A stretch of 38,120 nt of DNA from an uncultured Bacillota bacterium (lineage in GTDB: Bacteria; Bacillota; Clostridia; Oscillospirales; Oscillospiraceae): positions 1 through 38,120 of the forward strand of contig CANSSJ010000016.1 of the NCBI GenBank assembly GCA_947649625.1, in the 5' to 3' direction. The number at the start of each line of letters is the position of its first letter. The first letter of the stretch is position 1. Made by a program: the position numbers and the translations under genes. Shown here one piece after another: positions 2-38,120 of this stretch. Below the pieces are notes generated by a model. The model made no database searches. It was given only the letters and a program-made list of their open reading frames with translations, and was not told the DNA's origin.

Positions 2-3000
2 CGTAACCAGGTGGCCCAGCTGGCCCTGAACACCCTCAAGTCCCCCGTGGTGGACTTGAAGGACGGCACCTTTGACATCTCCAGCGGTGACGGCCAGGTC
101 GTCATCACCGGCGGTTCCCGTGAGTACATCGTCCGGTCCAGCCGCGAGAGCTACGCCTACGCCATCAACGACACTGAGAGCGAGGGCAGCTCCGCCTCCG
201 GCGTCAGCGGCGCCACCGTGGAGCTGGGCGAGCACCTGTACAACGGCGACCTGGAGCTGAACGACGAGACCGACGTGTTTGGCCGTCCCGCCCGCGAGTG
301 GGTCTATGACGGCAAGGAGATCGGCACCTACGCCAAGGACGAGCTGCTGCGCCGGGAGTACACCGCCAAGGTGACCGGCCGCGACCTGTACGACCAGCTG
401 GGCTCCTCCATCGTGAACAACATCGGCGGCTCCGGCAACAATGCCTGGACCCTGATCGTCTCTGTCGACGGCGAGCCCGACACCACCCTGTCCAAGGCTG
501 ACATCACCCGCAGCAACACCGACGGCGTGCTGAAGACCGACAAGGGCGTGCTGACCCAGGTGTTCGTGGACTCCGGCAACAAGGAAGTCTACATCGCCGT
601 CATCAACACCTTCCTGGCCATCGCCACCGAGGACTATGACTCCAAGAACGAAGAGGTCAAGCTGGACGTCTACGCTCTGGACCGGAGCGCCAACTGGACC
701 TCCAAAGCCCCCGACTATATCAAGAACAAGGGCAATGAGAAGACCTCTGTCACTGTTGAGGACGAGGACATCGACGTCTCCGGCGTGAAGGACGGCGACA
801 TGTTCCTGGTCACCGTGGCCGACGGCAAGATCCAGACCATGACCGCCCCCGAGGTGCTGTCTGACCGCGAGATCAACAGCTTCAAGGTGGGCAAGGACGT
901 GGAGTCCGAGGGCAAGACCTATGAGTACGCCGACACCGCCAAGTACGACGTGGACGTTCTGAAGGGCTACGCCAACACCAACCTGAAGGACAACACCTAC
1001 AACATCATCCTGGACAAGTACGGCTACCTCATCGGCATCGAGCAGAATGAGGACGCCGACCAGTACCTGTTCCTCACCGGCATGGACGGCAACAGCAGCG
1101 ACCTGGCCACCAAGAACGCTGACGCCAACGTCATCTTCCTGGACGGCACTATGGAGACCGTCACTGTGGCCGTGAAGGACAGCAAGCTGCCCACCAGCGG
1201 CCCCCAGATGAACACCTGGTGCACCTACAGCGTGGACAGCAAGGGCGTCTACACCCTGAAGCAGGTGGGCCACGCCGACGTGAGCAACTGGGATGTGTTC
1301 CAGAAGGATACCAACCTCACCAACAAGGGCACCGACGACGTAACCATCGACAACAAGAACGTCTCCCTGCCCGCCAACACTGGCAACGCCTACGGCAATG
1401 ACAAGACCGTCTACATCAACGTGGAGACCGATGCTATCAAGGCCGCCACTATCGCGAGCACAAGCGCCGGTATCAACTACTACTGGCACGTTATTATTGA
1501 CGACGTGGATTCCGTCACCGTGGGCGTCCGCAACACCAGCCTGAAGGTTGTGGACCAGACCGCTGCCGGCACCGACGGCACCACTGAGGCCAAAGCCAAG
1601 GCCATCAACTCTGAGATTTACGCCCTGTACGATGACGACGGCTACATCATCGCCGCCGTGACCATCGGCGTGGACGACGGCGCGAGCAAGACTTACGCCT
1701 ACATCCACAGTGACGGCGTGATACGCGAGCGCTACAACAAGGCCGACGACGAGTGGACCTGGGTCCGCGAGGCCATTGTGGACGGCAAGATCGTTGAGCT
1801 GACCGAGGTCGGCAGCGGCACCGCTCTGAGCGTGCTGAAGGACGACGTGGCCCAGGGCAGCTGGTATGAGGTCAAGTCCGACTCCAAGGGCAATGTCAAG
1901 AGCGTCAAGTTCCTGGACACCAAGGATTACACTCCCGGTTCCAACCAGCAGTGGATTGACGATGTCGCCGACGTGGAGGCCGCTGTCAATAAGGAAGATA
2001 CCGTAATCCTCCAGGTGGAAGGCATGGACAAGGCCACTGTCAAGCTGACCGTTGAGGAAGGCACCCTGTACACCGACACCGCCGCCAAGAAGGGCTTCTC
2101 CATCTCCCCCGACGTGAAGACCGTTCTCTGCCTGTCTGACGGCACCGCCCACAAGGCCAACCACATCAGCGACGGCTGCTTCGACGACTGCGACGACAAG
2201 TACACCGGCCGCACCGCTCTGGACCAGGCCATCCGTAACCTGGACAGCAACTTCACCGGCGAGCTGAACGTCGTGTTCGACAAGGGCGACGCTGTGGTCA
2301 TCATCCTGGTCGACCAGACCGTGGACGAGGGCGCTGAGCCTGATCCCGGCCCCACCCCCACTCCCACTGGTGATTTCGGTTCCCTTGTTGACAAGACTGC
2401 TGTGGCAGATACCTTAGACCTGGTTAACTTCAGCGAAACTGGCTCCTATGACATGAACACTGATACTGGTGTAATTAGCCAGTTCAATCGGATTGCCGGC
2501 AAGAGCCTGCCCACGCAGCTCACTGAGTACCTGGCCAACCAGGGCTTCACCGAGATTGGCGATATTGCGCGGAACAGCAGCAACAATGGCTATGAGGTTG
2601 AGGCCAAGAACGCTGATGGCATCAAGATGAAGGTAGCCCTGGCCGATTCCGCAATCGACCTGATTAACGAGGTTACCATTGACGGTGATAAGTACTACGC
2701 TGCCGCTACGGACGGTATTGATGACATTCTGGGCGCTGATTATGATGCCGCTGAGCACGGCACATATGCCAAGACCGGCACCAGCTATGTTGCTGTAACT
2801 GCTGCCCCTGAGAGTGGCAAGAGCTACGAGACCGGCTATGTCGCCGTGACCGCGAGTACCACGGTTGCAGGCATGGGCGCTTTGACCAATGCTACTGATA
2901 AGACAAAGAGCATTACCGCTACAGCTGCACCCACTGAGGGCGCTTATGCCAAGATTGGCGCCGCCACTACCGTAAAGATTACTGTGACCTATGATGTTGC

Positions 3001-3181
3001 GGGTGGCGACTCTTCCAAAGCTACAGCCGCTATTGCCTTTACCTGTGACCAGACCACATCTGCGACTACGGGTTCCCTTGCGGCTGGTGCCAAGACTGCC
3101 ACCGTGACGGTTTCTCTGGTTGCCAATGACGTGGCCGCCGGTACTGACGTTGAGATTGAGTTGACTGCTATCGACGGTTAA
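2..3181 (+). CDS. S-layer / SLH-type surface protein, 5' end cut by window
   Basis: The reading frame is open from the first bases and ends with TAA at 3179-3181, so the N-terminus lies outside the window. The first visible residues (NQVAQLALNTLK) resemble the end of an SLH repeat, the module that holds S-layer proteins on cell-wall polymers. What follows is about 1,050 residues of Asp-, Thr- and Gly-rich beta-type sequence with almost no cysteine, as in Oscillospiraceae S-layer proteins. A Pro/Thr linker (about 2338-2370) separates this body from a C-terminal domain that carries two related segments (GTYAKTGTSYVAV and GAYAKIGAATTVKI). Codon use changes at the linker: before it about nine in ten sampled codons end in G/C, after it about six in ten. 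The likely role is a structural cell-surface protein. Exact family assignment is inferred because the SLH repeats are mostly missing. Confidence 0.75.
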   Translation, partial: RNQVAQLALNTLKSPVVDLKDGTFDISSGDGQVVITGGSREYIVRSSRESYAYAINDTESEGSSASGVSGATVELGEHLYNGDLELNDETDVFGRPAREWVYDGKEIGTYAKDELLRREYTAKVTGRDLYDQLGSSIVNNIGGSGNNAWTLIVSVDGEPDTTLSKADITRSNTDGVLKTDKGVLTQVFVDSGNKEVYIAVINTFLAIATEDYDSKNEEVKLDVYALDRSANWTSKAPDYIKNKGNEKTSVTVEDEDIDVSGVKDGDMFLVTVADGKIQTMTAPEVLSDREINSFKVGKDVESEGKTYEYADTAKYDVDVLKGYANTNLKDNTYNIILDKYGYLIGIEQNEDADQYLFLTGMDGNSSDLATKNADANVIFLDGTMETVTVAVKDSKLPTSGPQMNTWCTYSVDSKGVYTLKQVGHADVSNWDVFQKDTNLTNKGTDDVTIDNKNVSLPANTGNAYGNDKTVYINVETDAIKAATIASTSAGINYYWHVIIDDVDSVTVGVRNTSLKVVDQTAAGTDGTTEAKAKAINSEIYALYDDDGYIIAAVTIGVDDGASKTYAYIHSDGVIRERYNKADDEWTWVREAIVDGKIVELTEVGSGTALSVLKDDVAQGSWYEVKSDSKGNVKSVKFLDTKDYTPGSNQQWIDDVADVEAAVNKEDTVILQVEGMDKATVKLTVEEGTLYTDTAAKKGFSISPDVKTVLCLSDGTAHKANHISDGCFDDCDDKYTGRTALDQAIRNLDSNFTGELNVVFDKGDAVVIILVDQTVDEGAEPDPGPTPTPTGDFGSLVDKTAVADTLDLVNFSETGSYDMNTDTGVISQFNRIAGKSLPTQLTEYLANQGFTEIGDIARNSSNNGYEVEAKNADGIKMKVALADSAIDLINEVTIDGDKYYAAATDGIDDILGADYDAAEHGTYAKTGTSYVAVTAAPESGKSYETGYVAVTASTTVAGMGALTNATDKTKSITATAAPTEGAYAKIGAATTVKITVTYDVAGGDSSKATAAIAFTCDQTTSATTGSLAAGAKTATVTVSLVANDVAAGTDVEIELTAIDG

Positions 3182-3214
3182 GCACCAGCGAAAGATACCT
3201 TTGCAATGAGAAAA

Positions 3215-3246
3215 AGGACCCGCCCCGGGAGGGGCGGGTCCTCTTT
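3215..3246. terminator. Bidirectional rho-independent terminator
   Basis: An 11-bp GC-rich stem (GGACCCGCCCC with GGGGCGGGTCC) and a GGGA loop lie between the convergent S-layer and tail-fibre-like genes. It is followed by TCTTT on the plus strand and preceded by AAAAA, which gives a U-tract on the minus strand. It can end both transcripts. Confidence 0.8.
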
Positions 3247-3251
3247 GCCTC

Positions 3252-3725
3252 TCAGTCCATCGGGCAGAAAGCGAATACGTGGTAGGTGTAATTAAACCAG
3301 TTCGACTGGAAAAAGACATCGTCCGTATACCATGTGACGGTGTTCCCGTTCCAGGTAATGTGCATCGTAAAGGTCCGGTTGCCTGAGCCGACGGTATGAG
3401 TGCTGTTGAAGGGGAGAATAGTCATCTGCAACCCGCCGGTCGAGGTAAAGATAAAGACCAGCGCCGGCTTTTTCGGAAAGGTCAGACTGTTGGGGTGGCT
3501 CTCGCCGAAGTTTTCGGAGTTGGTGCCGTCCCCCTTGTAGCTGGTGATGTAGATTTGGCAGTTGCCGTGCCTGGGCGAGGCTTCCGTCAGCGCGGCCAGG
3601 GCGGCGGCGTGCTCCCCCAGCGCGGCGTCGATCTTGGCGTTGTCCGCGTTGAAGTCTTCCATCAGGACGCGGTCGTCCCTCGACCACTGGCTGAGAGAGT
3701 AGTTGGGTGTTTGATTACTTGGCAT
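3252..3725 (-). CDS. Tail-fibre-like phage protein (orphan)
   Basis: A 157-residue protein. The start is the ATG at 3725-3723, seven bases after an AGGAGG; another ATG six bases upstream lies too close to that Shine-Dalgarno. The N-terminal part (NYSLSQWSRDDRVLMEDFNADNAKIDAAL read as two pieces, about residues 8-36) matches the style of short tail-fibre or tail-collar proteins in Clostridia prophages, where a Trp-rich start precedes a DFNxDNAKID helix. The rest is rich in Asn, Thr, Phe and Trp with no cysteine until the last residues, consistent with a beta-structured receptor-binding tip. It stands alone between an S-layer gene and a PTS gene, about 26 kb from the tail operon that ends at 29387. 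Function is inferred from composition and the N-terminal motif. Confidence 0.6.
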   Translation of the reverse strand: MPSNQTPNYSLSQWSRDDRVLMEDFNADNAKIDAALGEHAAALAALTEASPRHGNCQIYITSYKGDGTNSENFGESHPNSLTFPKKPALVFIFTSTGGLQMTILPFNSTHTVGSGNRTFTMHITWNGNTVTWYTDDVFFQSNWFNYTYHVFAFCPMD

Positions 3726-3797
3726 GTTCATGCCTCCTTTCACCAATGGAGGAGAAAGGGGAAAAATTGCACGTTTCCATACATTTATTGGCAATGA

Positions 3798-8698: not shown

Positions 8699-8705
8699 AA
8701 ATATA

Positions 8706-8756
8706 TTGGACGGCACTCCAGGTCTGGAATGCCGTCCAACTCTTTTTAATTTTTTT
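8706..8756 (+). terminator. fruRK terminator
   Basis: A 14-bp stem with one mismatch (TTGGACGGCACTCC and GGAATGCCGTCCAA, loop AGGTCT) is followed by CTCTTTTTAATTTTTTT. The T-tract doubles as the last codons and stop of the convergent prmA gene. Confidence 0.9.
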
Positions 8757-9714: not shown

Positions 9715-9717
9715 ACG

Positions 9718-11128: not shown

Positions 11129-11163
11129 GGGGGCGGACCTTCTTTCTTAATGTGATATCGGTA

Positions 11164-11193
11164 ATTATATCATAGAATATCAGGCACTGTAAA
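11164..11193 (-). promoter_or_regulatory. Promoter of DUF1836-degV-prmA operon
   Basis: On the minus strand TTTACA (11193-11188) and consensus TATAAT (11169-11164) are separated by 18 bp, placing the start of transcription about 45 bases before the DUF1836 ATG. Confidence 0.75.
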
Positions 11194-11201
11194 GGGGCTT
11201 T

Positions 11202-12095
11202 TCAGCGCCTGCCACGCTGAGTCCCCGTCCACCGGTGCAGCCGCTCCAGCGCGCCGGCGTGGTCGATGGACCGCAGGCGTGGGAATGCCTTCAGCAGACG
11301 GCGGCGGCCGAAAAACTCCCCGTCCCGCAGCTCCTGCACAGACATGCGCCACTCCTCCAGCTGACGGCGGGCCTGGGCCAGACGCTCCTCCTGCCGGCGC
11401 TCCCAGTCCTCCCGCTCGTCGGCCAGCTCTGCCCGGCGCTCCGCCAGCTTGAAGGCCAGCTCGTCCAGGTCCTCTTTCCAGTCGGCCCCACGCTCGGCGG
11501 CGTCCAGCACCCGCTCGGCCAGATTTTCCCCGAACTCGTCGGAGGCCTCCTTGATTTTCGCGGCCAGCTCGTCGATTTGGGCCAGACGGCGGTTCAATTT
11601 GATAACGGAAGACACCGTGGCGGCCAGATCGACAGCCATCACCGCCCCCAGCAGCGCCAGCAGGACAACGCCCAGTGTTTTGGGGATCAGCCGGATCAGC
11701 AGCAGCACCGTGGGGTGGAGCAGCTTGACCACAAACAGACAGGCAAAGCCCCAGGCAATGGAGAAACGCAGACAGATATAGCCGCTGAGGTTGAAGGGTT
11801 CTTCCGAGTAGTCCCACCACCGCTGATGGAACAGCTTCTCCAGCACAAAGCCGGTGAGCCACTCCAGGGCGGAGGTGAGGGCTACCGAGCCCAGGAACAG
11901 CAGAAGCAGGTTCTCCTCCAGAGGGGTGAGGCAGGTGAGAACGATCACCACCCCGAAGCCATAAACCGGGCACACCGGCCCGTTGAGAAAGCCCCGGTTG
12001 ACAAACTTTCCCGTGACCAGGGCGGCGTAGCTCACCTCGGTGCACCAGCCCAAAAAAGCGTAAATAAAAAAGATCCAGACCAGGCGGTACAGCAT
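11202..12095 (-). CDS. CmpB-type (putative ABC permease) membrane protein with coiled coil
   Basis: A 297-residue protein. The N-terminal half (about 1-170) has four to five hydrophobic segments and the family motif FLGWCTEVSYAAL near residue 14, followed by FVNRGFLNGPVCPVYGFG, characteristic of the Pfam ABC_trans_CmpB / YitT-neighbour family common in gut Clostridia. The C-terminal half (about 175-270) is a long charged helix rich in Glu, Arg, Ala and Leu, a cytoplasmic coiled coil. Transport function is only a family label and has not been shown for most members. Start ATG 12095 follows AGGAGGGG. The gene stands alone between the clpB terminator and the DUF1836 promoter. Confidence 0.75.
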   Translation of the reverse strand: MLYRLVWIFFIYAFLGWCTEVSYAALVTGKFVNRGFLNGPVCPVYGFGVVIVLTCLTPLEENLLLLFLGSVALTSALEWLTGFVLEKLFHQRWWDYSEEPFNLSGYICLRFSIAWGFACLFVVKLLHPTVLLLIRLIPKTLGVVLLALLGAVMAVDLAATVSSVIKLNRRLAQIDELAAKIKEASDEFGENLAERVLDAAERGADWKEDLDELAFKLAERRAELADEREDWERRQEERLAQARRQLEEWRMSVQELRDGEFFGRRRLLKAFPRLRSIDHAGALERLHRWTGTQRGRR

Positions 12096-29386: not shown

Positions 29387-29956
29387 TTACAGATATTCCA
29401 CAAAGGTCTCCAGCTGTGTCCAGGACAGGTCCAGGTCCTCAATGGACTGCCAGCTGGGGAAGTTGTCCTCCAGCTCCCGCCAGGTGAGGAACCAGAAGTC
29501 GTATTCGATGCCCAGGTGGGCGGGGAGGATATCCTCGATGATTTTTTTCAGCTCCTCGAACCCCTGGGGCACCCCGGCCACCCCGGGGAAGGAGACGGAC
29601 GCCTGCCCCTTTCCCAGTTCCCTCACCACGGCGGGAACGCCGCAGCCGGCGACGGTGTCATTGATGGCGGCCAGCGTAAAGCTGTCCCCGCCGATGCGCA
29701 GCAGGGCGGCCAGGGCGGCGGCCAGCTTCCGGGGGTCTGTGGCCACCGGCCTCCGGGCCAGGAGGGAGGCGATCTTCTCCAGCCCCCAGCCCTCCGCCGT
29801 GGTCAGCGAGGCCTCCTTCTGGATGTCCTCCAGCCGGGCCAGCACCCCATCCAGGGCCTCGCCCTGGGCGTCCAGCTCGCCGCCGTTGAAGGGGGCCGTC
29901 AAATCATAGACCCCCAGGGGACGCAGCAGGTCCCGCAGATATTGGGCGTGGCTCAT
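29387..29956 (-). CDS. Baseplate/tail protein, XkdU-like (DUF2313)
   Basis: A 189-residue protein. The start is the ATG at 29956, overlapping the stop of the baseplate J gene by 4 bp (ATGA). It has the style of XkdU / YmfQ-like proteins: an N-terminal YLRDLLRPLGVYDL, a helical DGVLARLEDIQKEASLTTA, then LPAHLGIEYDFWFLTWRELE, where the last part is typical of DUF2313. These proteins sit at the edge of contractile baseplates next to gpJ and usually precede the tail fibre. Here it is the last gene: the terminator and a cellular gene follow, with no fibre, holin or endolysin. Confidence 0.8.
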   Translation of the reverse strand: MSHAQYLRDLLRPLGVYDLTAPFNGGELDAQGEALDGVLARLEDIQKEASLTTAEGWGLEKIASLLARRPVATDPRKLAAALAALLRIGGDSFTLAAINDTVAGCGVPAVVRELGKGQASVSFPGVAGVPQGFEELKKIIEDILPAHLGIEYDFWFLTWRELEDNFPSWQSIEDLDLSWTQLETFVEYL

Positions 29957-31008
29957 GACTTCTCCTCCACGCTCAGCGTACCCAGTATGGGCAGCTGGTC
30001 CTTCTCCACCGGCACATCGGCCGCCGGGGCGGCGATCACATAGTTGGCCACCCCGCCACAGTTGTAAATCAGGTGTCCCAGCCGGGCCCGGAGCACGTCC
30101 TGTCCCAGCAGCTTTCCGGTAAACCACCCCCGGACGGCCGCCTCCACCCGGTCCAGCACCTCCTCCTTGTTCCGGCCCTCCTCCGGCTCCACCTGGACCT
30201 GGATATTTACCGTCACCGTCTCCGGCGCCCGGACCTCCAGGTCCACGGCGATCTCCCGCCGCTCCTCAAAGTAGTCCAGGAGGGTGTCCAGCAGCGCCTC
30301 ATCGGGCACGCCGGCCAGGGTGGCGGGCACGATATCCACCGACCCCACCCCCCGGGGCCTGGAGACCACCGCGGCAGCGGCCACCTGGTCGAAGGACAGC
30401 GCCTCCTGCTCATAGAAGGCGGCGTTGGCTCCGTTGGGCAGCCGCTTGAAGGTGTCCAGCACTCGCTCCCGCAGGGCCTCATCCCCCTCGCCGTCCGCCC
30501 CTCCGGCGAAGGGCTGGGGGTTGGCGCAGGCGGCGATCCCCATGGGGGCCACCGCCATGGACACGATGGCCCCGGCGGAGATGTTGCCCGCCGCCCCGGC
30601 CTCCAGCGCCCGGACAGGCACATCCGCCGTCAGCGCACCCGCCTCCAGGACGCCCTCCTCCTCCGTCTCAAAGCGGACCAGTCCCGCCGTCATGCACACC
30701 GTCCCCTTGGGGATGCTTCTGGGCGTCCCGGCGGCCTCCCCGGCGGTAAAGCGCACCGTCCCCCGGGCGGCCACCGGCTGCTTGCGCTCCAGCCCCCGCA
30801 GCCGGGCGTGGGCGTCCAGATATTCCCCCTCCGCACTTTGGGGAAAGGCCTGCCGGACCACCCAGTCCGCCTGGATGTACAGCGCGCACACCTGGGCGGC
30901 CACGGCGTACAGCCGGGCCGACAGGTCGCACCCCTCCCGGGGCTCCAGCCCCGTCCGCTCCCCGAAGCTGGCCAGCAGCTCCTGATAGATCTCGTCAGCG
31001 GTTTTCAT
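29953..31008 (-). CDS. Baseplate J family protein (XkdT-like)
   Basis: A 351-residue baseplate wedge protein. It has AEGEYLDAHARLRGLERKQP near residue 70 (split here), GTVRFTAGE, and GGADGEGDEALRERVLDTFK, the baseplate J signature, followed by GVGSVDIVP and VTVNIQVQVEP. The start is ATG 31008 after GGAGGAGGG. It builds the wedge that links hub and fibres in contractile tails. Its stop overlaps the XkdU-like start. Confidence 0.9.
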   Translation of the reverse strand: MKTADEIYQELLASFGERTGLEPREGCDLSARLYAVAAQVCALYIQADWVVRQAFPQSAEGEYLDAHARLRGLERKQPVAARGTVRFTAGEAAGTPRSIPKGTVCMTAGLVRFETEEEGVLEAGALTADVPVRALEAGAAGNISAGAIVSMAVAPMGIAACANPQPFAGGADGEGDEALRERVLDTFKRLPNGANAAFYEQEALSFDQVAAAAVVSRPRGVGSVDIVPATLAGVPDEALLDTLLDYFEERREIAVDLEVRAPETVTVNIQVQVEPEEGRNKEEVLDRVEAAVRGWFTGKLLGQDVLRARLGHLIYNCGGVANYVIAAPAADVPVEKDQLPILGTLSVEEKS

Positions 31009-31021
31009 TGTCCCTCCTCCT

Positions 31022-31366
31022 TTACACCGGGAGCTGAGCCACAAGCTCTTCTCCCTGCCAGTCCAGATATACGGTGAGCCGCCCCGTCTCCCCCTCCTGG
31101 GCCAGCTCCACCCCCCGCACCGACAGGTCAGGCTCCTCCCGGAGGGCCTCGGTCACATACTGGGCGGCCAGGGCCTGCCGGGCGGAGGGCTTCTCCCGCC
31201 CCAGCCAGTACAGCCGGCTGCCCAGCTCGGGCATAAAGGGCAGGGCCCCCCGCCGGGCGGTGAGGCGGTACAGCACCCGGGCCAGCATCTCCTCGCCGCC
31301 GTTCAGGGCGGTCAGCCCGCCCGCGCCGTCGGGGACGTAGTCCCCCCGGCTCAGCTTCCACTCCAT
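31022..31366 (-). CDS. gp25-like baseplate wedge protein (XkdS-like)
   Basis: A 114-residue protein with the gp25 / lysozyme-like-wedge signature: LARVLYRLTARRGALPFMPELGSRLYWLG (about residues 28-56, read in pieces), where the P-x-LGSRL turn is the conserved core. In T4-type baseplates gp25 contacts sheath and hub. It lies between the gpV-like and gpJ genes in the expected order. Start ATG 31366 follows AGGAGG. Confidence 0.85.
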   Translation of the reverse strand: MEWKLSRGDYVPDGAGGLTALNGGEEMLARVLYRLTARRGALPFMPELGSRLYWLGREKPSARQALAAQYVTEALREEPDLSVRGVELAQEGETGRLTVYLDWQGEELVAQLPV

Positions 31367-31378
31367 GCTTCTTCCTCC

Positions 31379-31768
31379 TTACCCCAGCAGGTCGATCACG
31401 ATATCCCGCACCACGTCGTACAGTGTCCGGCCGTTGAGATACAGGTCCCCAGTCAGCTCCAGCCGGTCCTGGCCCAGAAAGACGGAGCTCTCCCCGCCCT
31501 TCAGCCGCACCTCCCCGGGCTCCAGCTCCGCCTCCTCCTGGGCCACCCCAAGCAGGCAGGGGGCCTCCCCCTCCACCCCCGCTTTGAGCACCAGCACCTT
31601 GTCCCCGGCGGTGGGCCGCCAGCTGTAGCCCCCGGGCCCATATACGCCGATCCACCGCCGCTCGCCCCCCAGGCTCACCCCGGCCGGGTCGCCGCCCAGA
31701 GTCACGGTGCCCAGCTCCGCCGCCGGCTCGCCCGACCGCGGGTTCCGATTCCGTTCCGATGTCCACAT
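31379..31768 (-). CDS. Baseplate spike / gpV-like OB-fold protein
   Basis: A 129-residue protein. An OB-fold-like central region (GTVTLGGDPAGVSL and GDKVLVLKAGV, about residues 20-70) and a C-terminal LELTGDLYLNGRTLYD resemble the short gpV/XkdR-type spike proteins of Clostridia tails. Start ATG 31768 follows GAGGTG. A second reading frame starting 28 bases upstream is also open at the N-terminus, so the true N-terminus is uncertain. The gene is separated from the hub gene by a palindromic repeat. Assignment is by position and motif; DUF2577 is the alternative. Confidence 0.65.
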   Translation of the reverse strand: MWTSERNRNPRSGEPAAELGTVTLGGDPAGVSLGGERRWIGVYGPGGYSWRPTAGDKVLVLKAGVEGEAPCLLGVAQEEAELEPGEVRLKGGESSVFLGQDRLELTGDLYLNGRTLYDVVRDIVIDLLG

Positions 31769-31803
31769 GGTCGTTCACCTCAACAATCATTTTCATAAGA
31801 GGC

Positions 31804-31880
31804 GGCGGGCCGAGTCGTCCCGCCCTACAATCAGAAGCTCTCTCTGTGTAGGGCGCGACGACCCCGGCGCGCCGCAGCTG
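31804..31880. repeat. GC-rich palindromic intergenic repeat, copy 2
   Basis: The 26-bp segment GGCGGGCCGAG...CGCCCTACA (31804-31829) is identical to that at 25886-25911. A divergent inverted arm (TGTAGGGCGCGACGACCCC from 31851) follows after a 20-bp spacer. It sits in the only gap of more than 15 bp inside the tail operon, between the hub and spike genes. Confidence 0.75.
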
Positions 31881-31890
31881 ATTTCTGTAG

Positions 31891-32841
31891 TCAAACGGTA
31901 AAATTGGGATTTGCCAGCTCCATGCGGCTCCAGTACCCGCTCCCGTCCATCCCCACGGTCACCTGGGCAGCCCGGTAGCGGCCGTTCCAGTCCCAGCCCT
32001 TCCGCTGGACGGTCACCAGTTCCCCCGGCCAGACGCAGAAGGCCTCTCCCACGGTGATCTCCAGCCGCTCCAGCTCGGAGGCGGACCGGTCCAGCTGAAA
32101 CTGGCCGGAGTAGCGCATGGCCTTGTAGCTGCTCCGGGAGGGCATGGTGATCACCCGGCGGGCCCGGCCCCCGGCCCGCCGGAAGGCCGCGTTCTCCACC
32201 CGCTCTACCTTGCCGCTCCAGCGGTCCCGCACCAGCACCTGGGACAGCACGCCGTAGCGCCTGTCCCGCCGCACCATGGAGATCACGGGGGTGGTGTCGT
32301 CCACCACCCGCTCCCGGCTGTCGTCCCAGCCGGAGAGCACCAGCCGCCCCTGCCGGTCAAACCGGGGGGCCGCGCCGCCGTAGTACCGGGCGAAGTCGTA
32401 GACCACCGACCATTCACTGCTCCCGCTCGCCACCGAGAAGCGGGACACCGGGGGCAGCCAGGCCCCCGGCGCCGCTGTGATCCCGTAGGGCGTCACGTGG
32501 TCCCGGAGGATGTCCGCCTGAGTGGCAAGCTGGTAGTCCTCCCCCAGGGCCTCGTTGTCCAGCAGCAGGGCGGCCATCCCCCGCCCGGACGCCTCCAGCA
32601 GGCGGCCGGAGGAATTTACCGACACCTCGCACTCGTCCACCACTCCGGTGAACACCCGCTCCCCCTGGTGCTCCGCCCGGAAGCCCGTCCACGCCTCCGG
32701 CTTCACCGCGTTGCCCGCGTCCCAGCCGCACCGGATCCAGAAGCTGTCGCAGGGCACCCCGGCGGTGTACTCCATCCGCCAGGCCAGAGGCGGGGGGAGG
32801 GCCCAGCTCCCCCCGGCCGCGTCAGTCATATAGGCGGTCAC
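31891..32841 (-). CDS. Baseplate hub, late-control-D / XkdQ-like
   Basis: A 316-residue protein. The start is a GTG at 32841 overlapping the LysM gene stop (GTGA). It has WRMEYTAGVPCDSF near the start, GVVDECEVSVNSSGRLLEASGRGMAALL, which is the XkdQ/gpD hub signature (split in evidence), and VISMVRRDRRYGVLSQVLVRD in the middle. The C-terminal part is a second beta domain that includes FQLDRSASELERLEI. It forms the tail hub that holds the spike. The order hub, LysM, upstream matches PBSX-type baseplates. Confidence 0.87.
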   Translation of the reverse strand: MTAYMTDAAGGSWALPPPLAWRMEYTAGVPCDSFWIRCGWDAGNAVKPEAWTGFRAEHQGERVFTGVVDECEVSVNSSGRLLEASGRGMAALLLDNEALGEDYQLATQADILRDHVTPYGITAAPGAWLPPVSRFSVASGSSEWSVVYDFARYYGGAAPRFDRQGRLVLSGWDDSRERVVDDTTPVISMVRRDRRYGVLSQVLVRDRWSGKVERVENAAFRRAGGRARRVITMPSRSSYKAMRYSGQFQLDRSASELERLEITVGEAFCVWPGELVTVQRKGWDWNGRYRAAQVTVGMDGSGYWSRMELANPNFTV

Positions 32842-33413
32842 CGCACCCGCACCTCCTGCCCCACATAGATCAGGTTGGGATTTTTGATCTGGGGGTTGAG
32901 GGCCACCAGCTCCTTCAGGTCCACGCCGTACCGCCGGGCCAGCCCCCACAGGGTGTCCCCCTTCACCACCCGGTGGTACTCGGGCTGTGCCGCCGTCTGG
33001 ACCGCCGCCCCGGACAGGCTCCGGGCGGGCTCCGCTGCCCGGTCGGCCACCCCCCGGTAGCGGCCTACCTCCTCCCAGAATTCGAAGGAGTAGCGCACAT
33101 AGTCGGGCCGGGGAGTCTGTTCCAGCCGCAGCGCCACAAAATAGGCGTCGGCCGCCTGCCAGAGGGGATGGACCAGCAGCCCCGTCCCCCCCTCGTAGAA
33201 GAGGCAGGCCAGCCGCTGAAACTCCTCATAGGCCCCCGGCCCCACAAACTCCCCCGAGCCCTTCATCACCCGGTGGCCCATCCCCAGATCCTGGAGCTGG
33301 TAGCGCCCGAAGGGCATCTTGTGGGCCGCCATAGCCCTCTGAAAGTCGATGGAGTAAATTCTGGGGTTGTGGGGCCAGGTATAGCCTTTATAGCGCATGG
33401 GCGATAAATCCAT
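32838..33413 (-). CDS. LysM hub-associated tail protein (XkdP-like, DNA-circulation N-domain)
   Basis: A 191-residue protein. The N-terminal part (about 1-110) has MRYKGYTWPHNPRIYSID and FGRYQLQDLG followed by GSGEFVGPGAYEEFQRLA, the style of DNA-circulation/gp43-type tail proteins. The C-terminus (about 145-191) is a LysM repeat: YHRVVKGDTLWGLARRYGV and LNPQIKNPNLIYVGQEV. Proteins of this kind link the tail tube to the hub, and the LysM may bind peptidoglycan. Start ATG 33413 follows AGGAGAGC. It overlaps the hub gene (GTGA). Confidence 0.85.
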   Translation of the reverse strand: MDLSPMRYKGYTWPHNPRIYSIDFQRAMAAHKMPFGRYQLQDLGMGHRVMKGSGEFVGPGAYEEFQRLACLFYEGGTGLLVHPLWQAADAYFVALRLEQTPRPDYVRYSFEFWEEVGRYRGVADRAAEPARSLSGAAVQTAAQPEYHRVVKGDTLWGLARRYGVDLKELVALNPQIKNPNLIYVGQEVRVR

Positions 33414-33425
33414 CTGCTCTCCTCC

Positions 33426-33980
33426 TCAGTACAAATAGAAGCCCCCGTCATACCGGCGGCTGTCCCGGCGGAAGGCCCGGTCGGCCTGTTCCGCCCATAT
33501 CATCTCTCCCGACGCGGGAGAGCCGGAGGGGACAGGTCCTCCCCCCGGCGCCTCAACCTCCGGCACGCCGCCGGAAATCCACCCTGAAGCAGGTCCGCGC
33601 GGGGGGACGGAACCGCTGTTCCGCCGTCCGTCTCGCCTGGCCGGGACCCCCTCAAGCTCCGGCGGCGGCAAAAACCCTTCCCGGCCGCCGTCCCCGGCGC
33701 CCGCCGTCTGGAGGGACTGGAGGGAGCGCTCCGCGCCCCCGTCCACCTCTAAACTGCCGCCCCGATCCACATTTTGCCGGGAATCAAATCCGTCTTCGGT
33801 GATCGCTCTCTCGAGCTCCGATGTCACCCGGCTCCTCCTCCAGGGATTTTTCTCCCTCCGGCGGATGTTCGGGACAGCTTCCGCGTTTTTCTCTTCGCCG
33901 GCGGAAAACGTCCCCATCTGCCGCAGCCGCCGGGCCAGAACCTCCAGCCCTTCCAGGGCCTCCTCCAGATAGTCAGTCAG
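33426..33980 (-). CDS. Short protein in the tape-measure position
   Basis: A 184-residue reading frame in the slot where contractile phages encode a tape-measure protein of several hundred to over a thousand residues. The start is proposed at a CTG (33980) that overlaps the upstream gene by 8 bp and is preceded by AGGGAGG with eight bases of spacing; the first ATG (33917) has no Shine-Dalgarno. The N-terminus (LTDYLEEALEGLEVLARRL) is a helix and the C-terminus ends QADRAFRRDSRRYDGGFYLY. The middle is Gly-, Pro-, Arg- and Glu-rich and looks disordered. I do not recognise the family. It could be a very short tape measure, a chaperone partner, or the remnant of a deleted tape-measure gene. Confidence 0.55.
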   Translation of the reverse strand: MTDYLEEALEGLEVLARRLRQMGTFSAGEEKNAEAVPNIRRREKNPWRRSRVTSELERAITEDGFDSRQNVDRGGSLEVDGGAERSLQSLQTAGAGDGGREGFLPPPELEGVPARRDGRRNSGSVPPRGPASGWISGGVPEVEAPGGGPVPSGSPASGEMIWAEQADRAFRRDSRRYDGGFYLY

Positions 33981-34401
33981 GGTTCCCGCCTCCCTTCATC
34001 TCCAAAAACCGTCCGGGGTCAAAGGCGGGATTGGCGGCCGCCTCCCGGCCGGCCTGCTCCCGGCCGCACGCCGGGCAGCGCTCCTCCAGCGCCCTGCTCC
34101 GGCAGTCGGGACACAGCTGGTCCAGTCCCGGATCGTTTGCCCGGCGGAAGGCGCTCCACCGGGCGGCCAGCGCGCCGATCTCTCCCGCCGTCAGCCCGGC
34201 CAGCACCGCCGTCCCGTCGGGGTACACAGGCGTTTTGCTCTCCTCATCCTCCAGCGCCCGGGCCAGGAGACAGGCGTTGTCACACAGCGCCCGCTCCCGC
34301 CTGTCCTTTGCCAGCCCGGCCGCCTCTCTCCGGGCCTGGAGCAGCTCCAGCGCCGTCAGCGGCCGCAGCGTCCGGCCGCCGCCCAGGGATACCCCGGTCA
34401 C
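33973..34401 (-). CDS. Tail assembly chaperone-like protein with zinc-ribbon motif
   Basis: A 142-residue protein starting at a GTG (34401) that overlaps the tube stop (GTGA). The first 90 residues are helical and Ala/Arg/Leu-rich (LTALELLQARREAAGLA), in the position and style of XkdN-type tail assembly chaperones. Near residues 96-112 there is a CxxC-x8-CxxC pair (LCPDCRSRALEERCPACGRE), a likely zinc ribbon that ordinary tail chaperones lack. The C-terminal tail is Gly/Pro-rich. The chaperone role is inferred from its place between tube and hub genes. Confidence 0.6.
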   Translation of the reverse strand: MTGVSLGGGRTLRPLTALELLQARREAAGLAKDRRERALCDNACLLARALEDEESKTPVYPDGTAVLAGLTAGEIGALAARWSAFRRANDPGLDQLCPDCRSRALEERCPACGREQAGREAAANPAFDPGRFLEMKGGGNPD

Positions 34402-34787
34402 GACTGGATCTCGATGCGCCGGGAGGCCACCAGCGAGACCTTCTCCAGCACCATGCTCCCGATGCTGGCGCTCTCCTGAATGGCGCTCCACTGGCATCCG
34501 GAGTAGATCACCTTCCGGTCCGGCTTGCAGATCACCAGGGAGAAGTCCTTCATGTCGTAAAAGTTCAGACCGTCCCGAATGGCCTGATCGGTGGCGTAGA
34601 GCCTGCTCAGCTCGATCACATGGGCGGCCTGGCCGGGGGAGGTGGCCACCGGCTCCGACTCCCCAAAGGCCTCCACCGCCGTGCTGCTCTTGGTGGTCCT
34701 GGCCGCGTAGCTCTGCACCACCGCCACCCGCACGCCATCCGCCTCCAGGTAGATGTCGCTGCTGGTGGGAAATCCAGGAATACTCAT
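34398..34787 (-). CDS. Contractile tail tube protein
   Basis: A 129-residue protein in the position directly after the sheath, with MSIPGFPTSSDIYLEADGV at the start and IQESASIGSMVLEKVSLVASR at the end, in the style of XkdM-type tube subunits. It would form the inner tube through which the particle's content passes. Start ATG 34787 follows AAGGAGG. Confidence 0.85.
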   Translation of the reverse strand: MSIPGFPTSSDIYLEADGVRVAVVQSYAARTTKSSTAVEAFGESEPVATSPGQAAHVIELSRLYATDQAIRDGLNFYDMKDFSLVICKPDRKVIYSGCQWSAIQESASIGSMVLEKVSLVASRRIEIQS

Positions 34788-34799
34788 TCTTCCGCCTCC

Positions 34800-35858
34800 T
34801 TAAACAGTGATGTGCGCCGTGAGCCAGATCTGGTTCAGCCCGTGGGCCACGGCAAAGGAGAAGTCCACCAGGCACCGGGAGGGGTCGGTACTGTCGGCGG
34901 ACACGTTCACCCCGTCGTAGCCGGTAATGATCTCCCGGGCCAGCTTGTTCTCCAGCTCCAGCACCACCTGGGACCGGATGGCCCCCCGGCTCTGCTGGGT
35001 GTTTTTGGCCCGGCGGAACTTGGTCCGCAGGGTGGAGCGCAGGCCGGGGATCACGTCGTCCACCACCCGGATGGCCGACAGGTCCCGCCAGGTGGCGTCC
35101 GCCGCGCCGCCGGAGACGGTGCGGGTGGTCACCCCCCGGACCACGCTGACCACGCCGCCCAGGCTCTCCACCGGGGTGACGCCGCCCAGGATCAGCAGGT
35201 CGATGTCGTTGTCCTCCAGCCGGGCGGACAGGCCGTTCAGCCCTTTCAGCTCCGCGCCTCCCAGGGGGACGGCGGGGTCGTTCTCCCCGGCGATCACCCC
35301 CGCCACAGCGGCGGCCAGCCCCAGTCCGGAGAGGGCCGCGCCCTGGCCGTCCACCCCGCCGGGGGCTGCCAGCACCACCCGCTCGTGATTGAGCTCCTTT
35401 GCCCGGGCGATCAGCTGCTCCACAGTCTCGTCCTTGGCTCCCGCTACCACGCACAGGCGCTCCCTGCGCTGGCTGGAGGCCTCCGCCACGCTGTCGCGCA
35501 GCTTTTTCTGCACCGTGATGTCGGTGCTGTCGCAGATGACCAGGGCAATGTCCTCCAGTCCGGCGATGGCGGCAAAGGCCGCCTCATAGCCGTCGGCAGA
35601 GGAGACGGCCGCCGCCGCCACGCCGGAGGCCCCGTTTTTCAGGGCCAGCCGGATCAGCTCCGCCATGCCCTCGCTTCCCTGATCCCCGAACAGGGTCAGG
35701 GCCTGGTCGTAGCTGGTCACGGTCTGGACCGTCCCCGCCTGGACCGCGGTGTTGATGCCCGCCAGGCCCACCAGCCGGCCGGCGCCGCTGCCGCTGACCA
35801 GACCGGACGCGTCGTAGGAGGAATACACCCCCGGACGCTGATGTACGGTAATACTCAT
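34800..35858 (-). CDS. Contractile tail sheath protein
   Basis: A 352-residue sheath protein (XkdK-like), shorter than the 430-460 residues usual for PBSX-type sheaths. It begins MSITVHQRPGVYSSYDASG and has GLAGINTAVQAG, YDQALTLFGDQGSEGMAELI, and the C-terminal sheath core with DVIPGLRSTLRTKFRRAKN and ITGYDGVNVSADSTDPS. Its ATG overlaps the stop of the upstream gene (ATGA). This is the gene that identifies the tail as contractile. Confidence 0.93.
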   Translation of the reverse strand: MSITVHQRPGVYSSYDASGLVSGSGAGRLVGLAGINTAVQAGTVQTVTSYDQALTLFGDQGSEGMAELIRLALKNGASGVAAAAVSSADGYEAAFAAIAGLEDIALVICDSTDITVQKKLRDSVAEASSQRRERLCVVAGAKDETVEQLIARAKELNHERVVLAAPGGVDGQGAALSGLGLAAAVAGVIAGENDPAVPLGGAELKGLNGLSARLEDNDIDLLILGGVTPVESLGGVVSVVRGVTTRTVSGGAADATWRDLSAIRVVDDVIPGLRSTLRTKFRRAKNTQQSRGAIRSQVVLELENKLAREIITGYDGVNVSADSTDPSRCLVDFSFAVAHGLNQIWLTAHITV

Positions 35859-36358
35859 TCTTTTACCACGCCTCTCAATTCAAAATCGGTAAACGCGCCG
35901 CCCGCGTCCACCGCGGCGCTGAGATAGAGGGTAAAGACCGCCGTCACCGGCCGTTTCAGCCGCCGGCTCTCCCCATCCCGCACCGTTTCGCCGCAGGACA
36001 GCTCCTTCAGCACCATTCCCTCTGGGCCCTCGAGGAGCAGGGCTCCGGCCAAAGCGTCAAAGGCGGCCTGCAAGACCTCCCCGTCCCCCCGTTCCGGGGC
36101 GTAGAGGTCCAGCCCGAAGGTGAGCTCGGCCCGGTGTCCGTACCGCTCCTCCCACCGGCCCGTCTCCTCCTGAAACCGCTCCCCCAGGTAGTTCTGGAAC
36201 CCGGAGCTCACCGCCCTGCACCCCCGGAGGGAGACCACCGCCACCGGCCGGGCCTCCTCTCTCCGGGGGGCGGCCGGGAAGGCGGTCACGGCGGGGACGC
36301 CCCGCCTGCTGAGGTGATCGGCCAGCTCACGGCTGACCTTTTCCAGTCCCACGCTCAC
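35855..36358 (-). CDS. Tail completion / tail terminator-type protein
   Basis: A 167-residue protein. The start is the GTG at 36358, overlapping the stop of the upstream gene (GTGA); a longer reading of this frame exists but overlaps two upstream genes. The sequence has VSRELADHLSRRGVP at the start and LTFGLDLYAPERGDGEVLQAAFDALAGAL in the middle, an alpha/beta pattern of tail terminator proteins. The assignment rests mostly on its position between the head-closure gene and the sheath. Confidence 0.6.
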   Translation of the reverse strand: MSVGLEKVSRELADHLSRRGVPAVTAFPAAPRREEARPVAVVSLRGCRAVSSGFQNYLGERFQEETGRWEERYGHRAELTFGLDLYAPERGDGEVLQAAFDALAGALLLEGPEGMVLKELSCGETVRDGESRRLKRPVTAVFTLYLSAAVDAGGAFTDFELRGVVKE

Positions 36359-36675
36359 GGCGCAGCCTCCTCTCCGGGGTAGAGGATCGCCCGCCAGTGG
36401 GGGCAGACGCCCTCCCCCACCAGATGGGCCGACCCCACCCGGTACTCCCGGCCCCGCCACTCCACCACGGTGTCCAGGTCCAGGGGGTGTCCGGCGGGAC
36501 CCAGGTAGCGGAACCGGTCCCGCCTGCCCAGCCCCAGGGGGGAGGCGGTCTCCTGCTCTGCCCCCCGGTCCAGAAGGGGCTGGACCATGGCCTTGCAGGA
36601 CACGGTCTTCGTTCCCCGCAGTGTCACGTCCTGCCCGAAGCGGTCCAAAATTTCGCTCCACATTCGTTCCATCAT
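36355..36675 (-). CDS. Head closure / minor capsid protein
   Basis: A 106-residue protein. The start is taken as the ATG at 36675, which overlaps the upstream stop by 4 bp; a second ATG follows at once. It has the pattern of small head-closure (XkdH-like) proteins: MWSEILDRFGQDVTLRG, then VVEWRGREYRVGSAHLVGE near the C-terminus. Position and size support the call. Confidence 0.6.
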   Translation of the reverse strand: MMERMWSEILDRFGQDVTLRGTKTVSCKAMVQPLLDRGAEQETASPLGLGRRDRFRYLGPAGHPLDLDTVVEWRGREYRVGSAHLVGEGVCPHWRAILYPGEEAAP

Positions 36676-37037
36676 CCCGCTACCCCCTGAAAGACAAATC
36701 CGGTGTCCCCCAGCCAGGGGGCCAGCAGCCCCTCGGCCTGAGCGGACAGGCTCTTTCCAGCCAGCCCGCCGCTTCCGCTCTCCTTCCGGATGGTCAGGTC
36801 CCCGGCGGTAAAGGAGGCCACCTCGCCGGACCTGCCGCCCGTCATCCCGGACAGCCAGTCCATCACCAGCATGGCCGCGGCCAGTGAGAAGGCGGGCCCG
36901 CAGTCCTCCGGAGCCACGCCCGCCCGCAGCCGCCCGGACAGCCATTCGCTCACCGCCTGGACCAGAGGAAGCAGCAGCTCCTCCTGGTCCTGAGGCGCTC
37001 CCATCGCCCCGCACAGGGCCAATATCTGCTCCGTCAT
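36672..37037 (-). CDS. Head-tail connector-type protein
   Basis: A 121-residue, mostly helical protein, ATG 37037, one base after the capsid stop. The helices EELLLPLVQAVSEWLSGRL and GPAFSLAAAMLVMDWLSG and the C-terminal GDTGFVFQG resemble the small head-tail connector proteins (gp6/XkdG-neighbour type) that follow the capsid gene. Assignment is positional. Confidence 0.55.
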   Translation of the reverse strand: MTEQILALCGAMGAPQDQEELLLPLVQAVSEWLSGRLRAGVAPEDCGPAFSLAAAMLVMDWLSGMTGGRSGEVASFTAGDLTIRKESGSGGLAGKSLSAQAEGLLAPWLGDTGFVFQGVAG

Positions 37038-37038
37038 A

Positions 37039-38016
37039 TCAGGCAGTCTTCAGCACCTGGCTGGCCTTGTTGAACACCTTGGCAAAGCCGCTGATGGTGG
37101 TAATGGCGGCCCGCTCCAGCTGGCGGTCGATCAACTTGTCATACTCCACCATCACGCCGCCGCTCTGGACCATCTCCAGAGCGAAGCGGCGGTCCAGACC
37201 GATGGCGGTCTTCTCGGGCAGCACGGAGGTGCGCAGCAGGGTGGCGCCCAGGGGAGTGGTCAGCTTGCCGGTGCCCTGGAAGTTCAGCCCGGTGAGGGGG
37301 TTCTGGAACTCGGGCAGCTTGAGCAGCTGGAGCATCACGTCCCCGGACACCAGCAAAGTGTTCATGGTGTAGGGGTCAAACTTGGCCCAGAAGTCCACTA
37401 GGGCGCCGTAGTCCAGGTCCTTGCCGGCGGCGATGGAGGTCACGGCGGCGGGATTCTGGTTGCCGTCCCCGTTGATGAGCACATCCACCGCATCCTCCAA
37501 GTGGGTGCAGGCGATGTGTGCGCCGATCTGCCGCAGGGTGACGGAGAACAGATCCAGCTTCTGGAAGCGCACCGCCTCATAGCTGGCCACCAGCATCCGG
37601 CCCCGCTTTTTCAGTTTGACCAGATTGGCCTGCACCTTGATGGTGGTGGAGGGAATGGCCGCCCCCTCGTTCACCGGCTTCAGTTTCTTCTCCTCACCTC
37701 CAGACTCAGAGGTGATGGAGCGGTAGTCCATCCCGTCGATCTTGGTAATTGCGGCGGTGATGTGGGGCAGGACGTCCCCCTCCTCCATTCCCTGGCGGAC
37801 GGTGCGGGCGATGTACTCGGGGAAGAGGACAGCGGCGTCCGAGGTGCGGAAGAAAGCCTCCACCGGGTCGCTGGCCTCCCCTTTCACTTTAATGCCGAAC
37901 CGCTTCAGCTGCCGCTGGAAGGCGTCCAGTCCCTCCAGGCTGGTGCCCTTGTACCGCTCGCTGGGGTCCTGACTCTCCAGTACCTGGCTGAAGGACCGCC
38001 CGCTCTCCCGGTACAT
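37039..38016 (-). CDS. Major capsid protein, HK97-like, with frameshifted N-terminus
   Basis: A 325-residue frame with the style of HK97-fold major capsid proteins: an N-terminal helical arm (DAFQRQLKRFGI), then DPVEAFFRTSDAAVLFPEYIA, the spine and P-domain (VRFQKLDLFSVTLRQIG), a loop with INGDGNQNP, and the C-terminal A-domain with PEKTAIGLDRRFALEMV and DRQLERAAITTISGFAK. It would build an icosahedral shell. The frame's first ATG (38016) has no Shine-Dalgarno. A properly spaced AGGAGG lies before an ATG at 38053 that reads MAYYYDNLKLDK, then shifts by one base into this frame. The gene is either frameshifted at the 5' end or carries a sequence error there. Confidence 0.75.
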   Translation of the reverse strand: MYRESGRSFSQVLESQDPSERYKGTSLEGLDAFQRQLKRFGIKVKGEASDPVEAFFRTSDAAVLFPEYIARTVRQGMEEGDVLPHITAAITKIDGMDYRSITSESGGEEKKLKPVNEGAAIPSTTIKVQANLVKLKKRGRMLVASYEAVRFQKLDLFSVTLRQIGAHIACTHLEDAVDVLINGDGNQNPAAVTSIAAGKDLDYGALVDFWAKFDPYTMNTLLVSGDVMLQLLKLPEFQNPLTGLNFQGTGKLTTPLGATLLRTSVLPEKTAIGLDRRFALEMVQSGGVMVEYDKLIDRQLERAAITTISGFAKVFNKASQVLKTA

Positions 38017-38068
38017 CCTTGTCCAGCTTCAGATTGTCGTAGTAATATGCCATGCTTTATACCTCCTA

Positions 38069-38120
38069 TTACAATATAATTTGGTTGGAACCCTTGGCAG
38101 CCAGCCGGGGGTTTCGTCCG
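38069..38120 (-). CDS. C-terminal end of an upstream phage-structural gene, partial
   Basis: The last 16 codons of a minus-strand frame, GRNPRLAAKGSNQIIL, end with tandem stops TAA TAG (38071-38066) just before the capsid Shine-Dalgarno. Its position suggests the scaffold/protease or portal-associated gene expected upstream of a capsid gene, but too little is visible to name it. Confidence 0.35.
   Translation of the reverse strand, partial: GRNPRLAAKGSNQIIL

Follow-up and report, generated by a model that had tools for sequence, protein, structure and literature searches.

Gene content of the locus

The DNA considered here, called the window below, is the entire contig C16 (CANSSJ010000016.1, 38,120 bp) of the genome of an uncultured Oscillospiraceae bacterium, and its minus strand carries a compact run of head and contractile-tail genes, from capsid to XkdU, between positions 38016 and 29387. 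We consider it probable that this run makes up the distal two thirds of an element, domesticated and passed on vertically in the Oscillospiraceae, that resembles a gene transfer agent (GTA) and whose fibres would come from dispersed genes. The encoded proteins are, in order, capsid, three neck proteins, sheath, tube, a chaperone-like protein, the product of a small open reading frame (ORF) in the tape-measure position (the slot ORF), a LysM/DNA_circ_N protein, hub, and spike-like, gp25-like, gpJ-like and XkdU-like proteins:

37039..38016, minus strand: major capsid protein (PHROG 3922 major head protein, 8e-104; Pfam Phage_capsid_4)
36672..37037, minus strand: connector c1, head-tail adaptor-like (weak match to PHROG 541, E 0.039; position conserved)
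36355..36675, minus strand: connector c2, head closure-like (weak matches to PHROG 501 and 82, E 0.08-0.09; position conserved)
35855..36358, minus strand: connector c3, tail terminator by position (PHROG 25177, function unknown, 2.6e-31; position conserved)
34800..35858, minus strand: tail sheath, 352 amino acids (Pfam PF04984, Phage_sheath_1, and PF17482, 1C; PHROG 279, 1.5e-43)
34398..34787, minus strand: putative tail tube by position, 129 amino acids (PHROG 27038, function unknown, 2e-56; beta-rich AlphaFold model, pLDDT 74)
33973..34401, minus strand: tail assembly chaperone-like protein, a single in-frame ORF in the window copy
33426..33980, minus strand: slot ORF, 184 codons, candidate miniature tape measure ending RRDSRRYDGGFYLY
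32838..33413, minus strand: LysM and DNA_circ_N baseplate protein (Pfam LysM 7e-16, DNA_circ_N 5e-5)
31891..32841, minus strand: baseplate hub (PHROG 177, 1.6e-34)
31379..31768, minus strand: spike-like protein, by position (PHROG 25991, function unknown, 6e-21)
31022..31366, minus strand: gp25-like baseplate wedge (PHROG 975, 4e-6; PHROG 43, 4e-5)
29953..31008, minus strand: gpJ-like baseplate wedge (Pfam Baseplate_J 2.1e-53; PHROG 6, 5e-75)
29387..29956, minus strand: XkdU/Mu Gp48-like baseplate protein (Pfam Phage_Mu_Gp48 2.7e-4, under its cut-off; PHROG 521, 4e-13)

This is the order proposed in an initial annotation made from the sequence alone, and the PHROG and Pfam profile matches bear it out; the 4-bp overlaps said there to join most of the genes are found at only 6 of 13 junctions by measured coordinates. 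The 129-amino-acid protein is probably the tail tube, judged by its position and by the beta-rich model of moderate confidence, and a profile search of PDB sequences with it returned no match. The slot ORF starts with a CTG codon at 33980, its earliest ATG lying at 33917, and the first codons of the capsid gene (38053-38016) are out of frame with its body, 70-100 bp from the contig end, which may be an assembly fault because relatives have intact capsid copies.

Since the window is a whole contig, terminase and portal are cut off, not missing. The rest of the packaging module lies at the end of contig C58, with genes for TerS (7865-8107), TerL (8114-9361), portal (9421-10509) and protease (10512-11393) in the order seen upstream of the capsid gene in relatives; a decoration gene and a short gap between C58 and the window are unseen. 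Extension of the sequence, proposed earlier as a way to find terminase, portal and integrase, has supplied the first two, and no integrase is among the commonest flanking families (see below). In the 20 relatives first fetched the full operon covers about 13 kb, running through TerS, TerL, portal, protease, decoration, capsid, neck, sheath and tube to gpJ and XkdU. Seventeen of its genes lie in one run in all 20, which argues that the operon is not a chance assembly; the profiles used were seeded from the same 20 loci and the window, and the chaperone pair, which was not recognised in all, is excluded from the count. No replication gene was seen in the operon.

The tape-measure slot

The short slot of the window recurs, with the same gene set, in other genomes. 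It measures 199-1553 bp in 98 of 98 distinct sheathed loci where tube and LysM gene are both visible (this count, like those of SOS boxes and terS motifs below, takes distinct capsids only), and none of the 98 has in it a full-length tape measure of the PBSX kind. Deletion of a normal tape measure in the window copy, considered as the origin of its short slot, is rejected in view of these lengths.

Many loci have three coding parts in the slot, namely a chaperone ORF, the second part of the chaperone and a small ORF. Both chaperone parts were recognised in 64 loci, 52 with the second part in the -1 frame and 12 in-frame, the window copy being of the in-frame kind. A run of at least six A residues is present in the open overlap of all 52 loci of the -1 frame kind and in none of the 12 others, against a background of 16 such runs in 99,981 bp, or 0.16 per kb, and the pair appears often to keep a poly-A frameshift signal. 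The small ORF has 56-289 codons in sheathed loci (median 193), and its product ends in an RRYD-type C-terminus, typically RD[AS]RRYDGGFxLY, in 92 of 113; the 21 others include some with a clear variant (L155, L159, L071 and L066) and three loci of sister family f4 that are without it (L170, L172 and L173). These motif counts and the chaperone-frame counts take some genomes twice (for example L062/L133 and L039/L110). The 24 sequences of an alignment (A4), chosen from 59 available slot proteins mostly because their N-terminus is complete, begin much like MTDYLE. In two sheathless elements of sister family f5 (L182 and L193) the ORF between the tube-like and LysM genes has shrunk to 46-47 codons and keeps a form of the RRYD motif, and in two more (L187 and L189) no slot ORF of at least 35 codons was found.

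The shortness of the slot, as first described, recurs in every sheathed locus measured, and what is not supported is the absence of a ruler, because the chaperone pair, often with its frameshift signal, is still followed by a small protein whose C-terminus is conserved, and because a ruler of about the same size exists in RcGTA of Rhodobacter capsulatus. According to PMC7296036, the RcGTA tape measure of about 216 residues goes with five tube hexamers, and its length is near the median of 193 codons obtained for the slot ORF. The two elements are built from different protein families. The slot protein may therefore be regarded as a candidate miniature tape measure.

Distribution and tail loss

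Sheath searches gave matches in 52 of 150 genomes of the window's family, spread over 44 of 106 genera and mostly in single copy. Two of these (G110 and G138) have a weak match at 23% identity and no head genes in the stretches fetched, which leaves 50 of 150 family genomes bearing the element by sheath score. A capsid profile matched in 71 of 394 genomes of the order, and a single-sequence capsid search, less sensitive than the profile, in 3 of 398 genomes of a phylum-wide draw, the window's own included. One of the 71 (G834, locus L174) has what seems to be an ordinary prophage, its portal, protease, decoration and capsid genes being distant relatives. Titles among the best 80 of at least 583 relatives include Flavonifractor, Pseudoflavonifractor, Lawsonibacter, Intestinimonas, Oscillibacter and Dysosmobacter, with no Onthomonas among those 80. 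Related elements occur also in the sister families f4 and f5.

Among loci with enough sequence downstream of the capsid gene, sheath, tube and baseplate are present in 36 of 39 from the window's family and in all 58 from its named members, the latter chosen by capsid similarity. Three loci of genus g52, in the window's family, have no recognisable sheath or baseplate, and a recognisable sheath is likewise missing from 22 of 23 loci in f5 and from 7 of 10 in f4 (L174 being one of the seven), with the caveat that a very divergent sheath could escape recognition. The baseplate is kept next to the head in 18 of the 22 sheathless f5 loci. The head is the constant part of the element. Several reduced forms can be told apart: the g52 loci (L205-L207) consist of head, neck, a tube-like gene and a short gene related to that of the LysM protein, after which no baseplate genes were recognised, and L060, L181, L185, L195 and other f5 elements have head and baseplate with no recognisable sheath or tube between them.

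Relatives of the capsid were also found in 366 IMG/VR stretches and in five faecal virome records, and neither sheath nor capsid matched anything above 31% identity among 50,697 phage records, unannotated virome scaffolds excepted. MT835769, a virome record from human faeces in Mexico, contains the element from TerS into the hub gene, together with recG. MT835508 (L054, 46.7 kb, also from human faeces in Mexico) has a head module of the same family amid apparent host genes (ribosomal-protein and Rnf-like, judged by eye), and no sheath or baseplate was recognised in it. The possible source of both records, PMC8361208, names neither accession and mapped about 28% of its reads to bacteria, and for these reasons the virome records are not counted as packaging.

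Inheritance, selection and flanks

Pairwise identity of 11 element genes tracks that of rpoB, with Mantel rho of 0.68-0.81 overall (up to 30 genomes) and 0.56-0.80 within the window's family, and in each test 0 of 999 permutations was as high. The maximum-likelihood trees built from rpoB and from four head genes have 15 of 27 splits in common, against at most 3 in 1000 label shuffles, and every one of the 13 rpoB splits supported at 95 or more is among those shared. The element is vertically inherited with its host. Purifying selection acts on the 19 genes tested, whose dN/dS medians, taken over as many as 8 close pairs, are 0.036-0.29 (tube 0.036, capsid 0.052, portal 0.082, TerL 0.087, chaperone 0.29).

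The flanks were surveyed over 140 kb and 109 proteins, and the 25 commonest of 120 Pfam families in them were inspected. These include transporters, regulators, RecG and three holins, and no integrase is among them. A recG gene stands close to the element in several genomes (L034, L043, L044 and L055), perhaps marking an old insertion site, and the Pfam family Phage_holin_4_1 was matched by three flanking proteins. The earlier statement that no lysis or fibre gene directly follows the operon stands for the window; after xkdU, L049, L051, L052, L072 and L152 have a small ORF of unknown kind. SOS regulation of the operon was considered and ruled out, as the box GAAC-N4-GTTC occurs in 1 of 133 upstream regions, where about 0.4 would be expected.

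These results bear on three readings other than a domesticated GTA-like element. A compact active prophage or satellite, still moving between hosts, could account for the capsid relatives in IMG/VR stretches and faecal viromes, yet it is improbable, since the element's tree mirrors that of rpoB, the phage records hold no close sheath or capsid outside unannotated virome scaffolds, and the integrase, replication and regulatory modules that an active prophage keeps beside its structural genes were not seen within the operon and the flanking families inspected. The complete baseplate and sheath, and an operon that has no fibre gene in it, would suit a contractile injection device that carries no DNA and has kept its head by chance, the use first suggested for the particle along with gene transfer. 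We think this would be surprising in view of the dN/dS medians of 0.05-0.09 for TerL, portal and capsid and of the retention of the head module where the tail is lost; tailocins and extracellular contractile injection systems have no capsid, portal or terminase, all of which are present here. The out-of-frame capsid start and the CTG-started slot ORF of the window copy are what a decaying prophage remnant might display, a reading that is scarcely credible, as it is already contradicted by purifying selection on 19 genes and by presence in tens of genera. The proposal of a domesticated particle of the gene-transfer kind, its contractile tail very short, in turn gains support from host tracking, purifying selection, short slots and flanks in which no integrase was seen. 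Of the properties by which a GTA is recognised, three are seen here: packaging and structural genes fixed in the genome, with no integrase or replication gene beside them in the operon and the flanking families inspected; vertical inheritance; and purifying selection on the 19 genes tested. The other two, packaging of random host DNA and its delivery to recipients, are what we infer that the particle would do.

Dispersed fibre-like genes and a promoter motif

Away from the operon, the first 4 kb of the window hold three further features:

2..3181, plus strand: S-layer-like protein, 5' end cut by the contig (assigned by arrangement and visible similarity to the L392 copy)
3252..3731, minus strand: dispersed fibre-like gene, 159 amino acids, N-terminal domain NYSLSQWSRDDRVLMEDFNADNAKID
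3762..3783, minus strand: operator-like motif TGTATGGAAACGTGCAATTTTT, two mismatches from a pattern that fits the operon promoter C58:7757-7778 exactly

The fibre-like protein has no PHROG hit, and a Pfam scan of the cut S-layer-like protein gave no hit. The fibre-like gene is one of a dispersed set whose products have in common the N-terminal domain NYxLSQWSRDDRVLMxDFNxDN, or near variants of it, and differ in their tips. In f5, 12 of 18 loci, and in f4, 2 of 3, have a gene with this domain immediately downstream of xkdU; none of 90 loci in the window's family does (two sets, of 36 and 54). Within that family the domain was found in 33 of 50 element-bearing genomes and in 7 of the remaining 100 (odds ratio 26, p 4e-14, kinship ignored), and the tip of one of 10 scanned proteins matches phage tail-fibre and collar families (PHROG 8469, 6e-26). 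These genes probably encode the fibres of the particle. The claim that the element is without fibre genes looks wrong, since sister families have fibre-like genes of one N-terminal domain inside the operon and the window's family has them at scattered places.

A motif near GTTGYAC-N6-GTRCAAC-WTTT precedes TerS. Its core, CAAC[AT]TTT, occurs in 51 of 133 TerS upstream regions, about 50 bp from the gene, where 1.25 would be expected in base shuffles. The strict palindrome has no match in the window at up to 3 mismatches. When up to three mismatches were allowed, TGTACNNAAACGTRCAACTTTT was found at 22 sites across 15 genomes, as against 4 for the reversed control, and TerS follows seven of the 22; in the window's genome there are 8 sites against 1. 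These eight precede TerS (one), a DUF6291 gene (one) and fibre-like genes (six, including that at 3252-3731 of the window). In G071 the same palindrome stands before six of seven fibre genes, four of them beyond all random pieces; in G147, 23 of 24 bases are identical before both fibre genes tested; and in G082 the motif is common to two of three. Such sharing was not seen in G128, G118, G064 and others. Fibre genes and operon may thus be co-regulated in some genomes.

The motif was also met before other genes. The DUF6291 protein (G000:C31:357-773, L393; Pfam 1e-11) has an exact match to the pattern upstream. In G068 (G068:C21:23088; L322 and L335) and G071 (G071:C2:103937; L334) the motif precedes genes for HPNC[RH]C proteins, followed in G068 by a gene that we take to be barstar-like, possibly a toxin with its immunity protein, controlled in the same way. 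Close to contig ends, two genes similar to each other (G082:C4:819 and G082:C39:818; L325 and L330), which we take to encode DUF4417 proteins, have the motif as well, as has an ORF of 361 amino acids with collagen-like repeats (G143:C225:69027; L348), perhaps another appendage protein.

Pairing with S-layer genes

The S-layer-like and fibre-like genes of the window lie tail-to-tail and form an S-layer/fibre cassette at 2-3731. The stretches fetched contain 43 fibre-domain genes, of 54 matches, and 31 of these are convergent with an ORF positive for an SLH profile built for the purpose from SLH-bearing paralogues, the gap being 52-237 bp (median 70 bp). Among the other 12, four are convergent with a large ORF cut by the sequence end and eight with neither, including the in-operon copy of G526. 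Pfam SLH was confirmed in both intact S-layer proteins scanned. In the window's genome all six fibre genes have an S-layer-type neighbour, with three strong matches, one weak, and two whose N-terminus is not visible. An array of such S-layer-type genes (about 1000 amino acids each) with convergent fibre-like genes, five of them 4.1-4.2 kb apart, and some 20-50 kb from the element, was noted at G128:C1:563-589 kb (L387 and L388). The arrangement suggests that the S-layer could be the receptor of the fibres. Co-divergence of fibre and S-layer was looked for and not upheld, the correlation being weak and confined to comparisons within genomes.

A particle with a contractile tail and S-layer-linked fibres might instead kill. 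Like PBSX, it would package host DNA without delivering it, competitors would be killed by contraction and the fibres would set the killing range. We regard this as the least unlikely of the alternatives, though still clearly less likely than gene transfer: the contractile tail suits it, and the Clostridioides difficile S-layer protein SlpA is reported as a phage receptor, but sister elements with the same head mostly have no recognisable sheath, in the proportions given above for f5 and f4, as if it were the head that is under constant selection.

Comparison with known systems

PBSX of Bacillus subtilis has the order capsid, sheath, tube, chaperone, tape measure, LysM, hub, gp25, gpJ and XkdU and builds a contractile tail, and the window operon is like it in both respects. 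PBSX also has a full-length tape measure and lysis genes, whereas the element of the window has a short slot and is followed there by no lysis gene. RcGTA has a tail without a sheath, and its parts are encoded at dispersed loci. Diffocins have a short sheath and no head genes, and we know of no fibre gene paired with an S-layer gene in diffocins or C. difficile phages. The use of SlpA as receptor that is reported for those phages and diffocins is S-layer-directed recognition of the sort proposed here.

The nearest published work is that of Borodovich et al. 2026 (PMC12946183), which describes GTA-like packaging in Faecalibacterium, Gemmiger, Ruminococcus and Onthomonas (Oscillospiraceae) and others, with faecal particles of Oscillospiraceae and Ruminococcaceae carrying host DNA. 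It gives a strong candidate operon in one of four genomes searched, that of Faecalibacterium, Onthomonas being among the four, and describes FpGTA particles without identifiable tails as most likely podovirus-like. FpGTA I and II resemble our element in having a head-packaging operon without replication genes, and host-DNA packaging, reported for FpGTA, is predicted for the window's element. The splitting of FpGTA structural, fibre and lysis genes over two loci can be likened to the separate fibre-like genes here. The element differs in having sheath, tube and baseplate in one operon together with dispersed fibre-like genes, and the words sheath and tape measure are absent from the main text on FpGTA. 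Some f4 elements of head plus hub (L061, L168 and L171) resemble FpGTA in content, compared by description only. In open-licence papers we found no report of such a contractile element or of S-layer/fibre cassettes.

A working model

If the gene content and the selection on it are a guide, the 13-kb operon would build a particle whose head contains DNA and whose contractile tail is very short. With its conserved ends anchored and the chaperone assisting, the slot protein would serve as a miniature tape measure, and receptor-binding fibres would be supplied by separate genes elsewhere that have a common N-terminal domain and differing tips, in some genomes presumably controlled through the promoter motif that they have in common with the operon. 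Particles released by lysis would bind relatives that bear an S-layer, contract and hand over host DNA. A more ambitious version, which we put forward tentatively and think rather less likely to hold in full, is a contractile-tailed GTA aimed at kin, with each fibre encoded beside the coat protein that it recognises, in cassettes that tune DNA exchange. Under that version the order would contain a natural series of tail loss, from a full contractile tail to a tube-like protein only and to a baseplate without a recognisable tube, as the ruler shrinks from about 190 to 46 codons.

Several observations weigh against the GTA-like account. The middle of the slot protein is variable and poorly predicted (pLDDT 62), with no long-helix tape-measure form, and the slot ORF is left out of the 19 genes for which dN/dS was computed. 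Integrases occur somewhere in all 30 genomes searched, among the matches listed, so that the claim of absence rests on the flanks, where it covers 25 of 120 Pfam families. A holin-like gene lies directly after xkdU in 5 of 116 loci (L036, L038, L040, L107 and L119). Seventeen of the 50 element-bearing genomes are without the fibre domain and 7 of the 100 others have it, and 9 of the 10 scanned fibre-domain proteins match no known tail-fibre family. The terS motif core is confined to 51 of 133 upstream regions, the strict palindrome with two mismatches allowed is hardly above chance, at 12 sites in 10 genomes where its reversed control has 9, and in the own-genome test the fibre promoter did better than every one of the 60 random pieces in 8 of 43 cases (3 of 6 in the window's genome). 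Comparisons within genomes show a weak correlation (rho 0.33; 10 of 2000 permutations) between the similarity of fibre tips and that of the paired S-layer proteins, and comparisons between genomes show none.

The element is a concrete GTA candidate for the Oscillospiraceae, a family for which the four-genome search of PMC12946183, Onthomonas included, gave no strong candidate operon. If the reading is true, gut bacteria would have a contractile-tailed gene transfer agent. Receptor and ligand would be recorded next to each other in the S-layer/fibre cassettes, so that host recognition by a domesticated particle becomes testable, and the tail-loss series allows the tape-measure rule to be tested at its lower limit.

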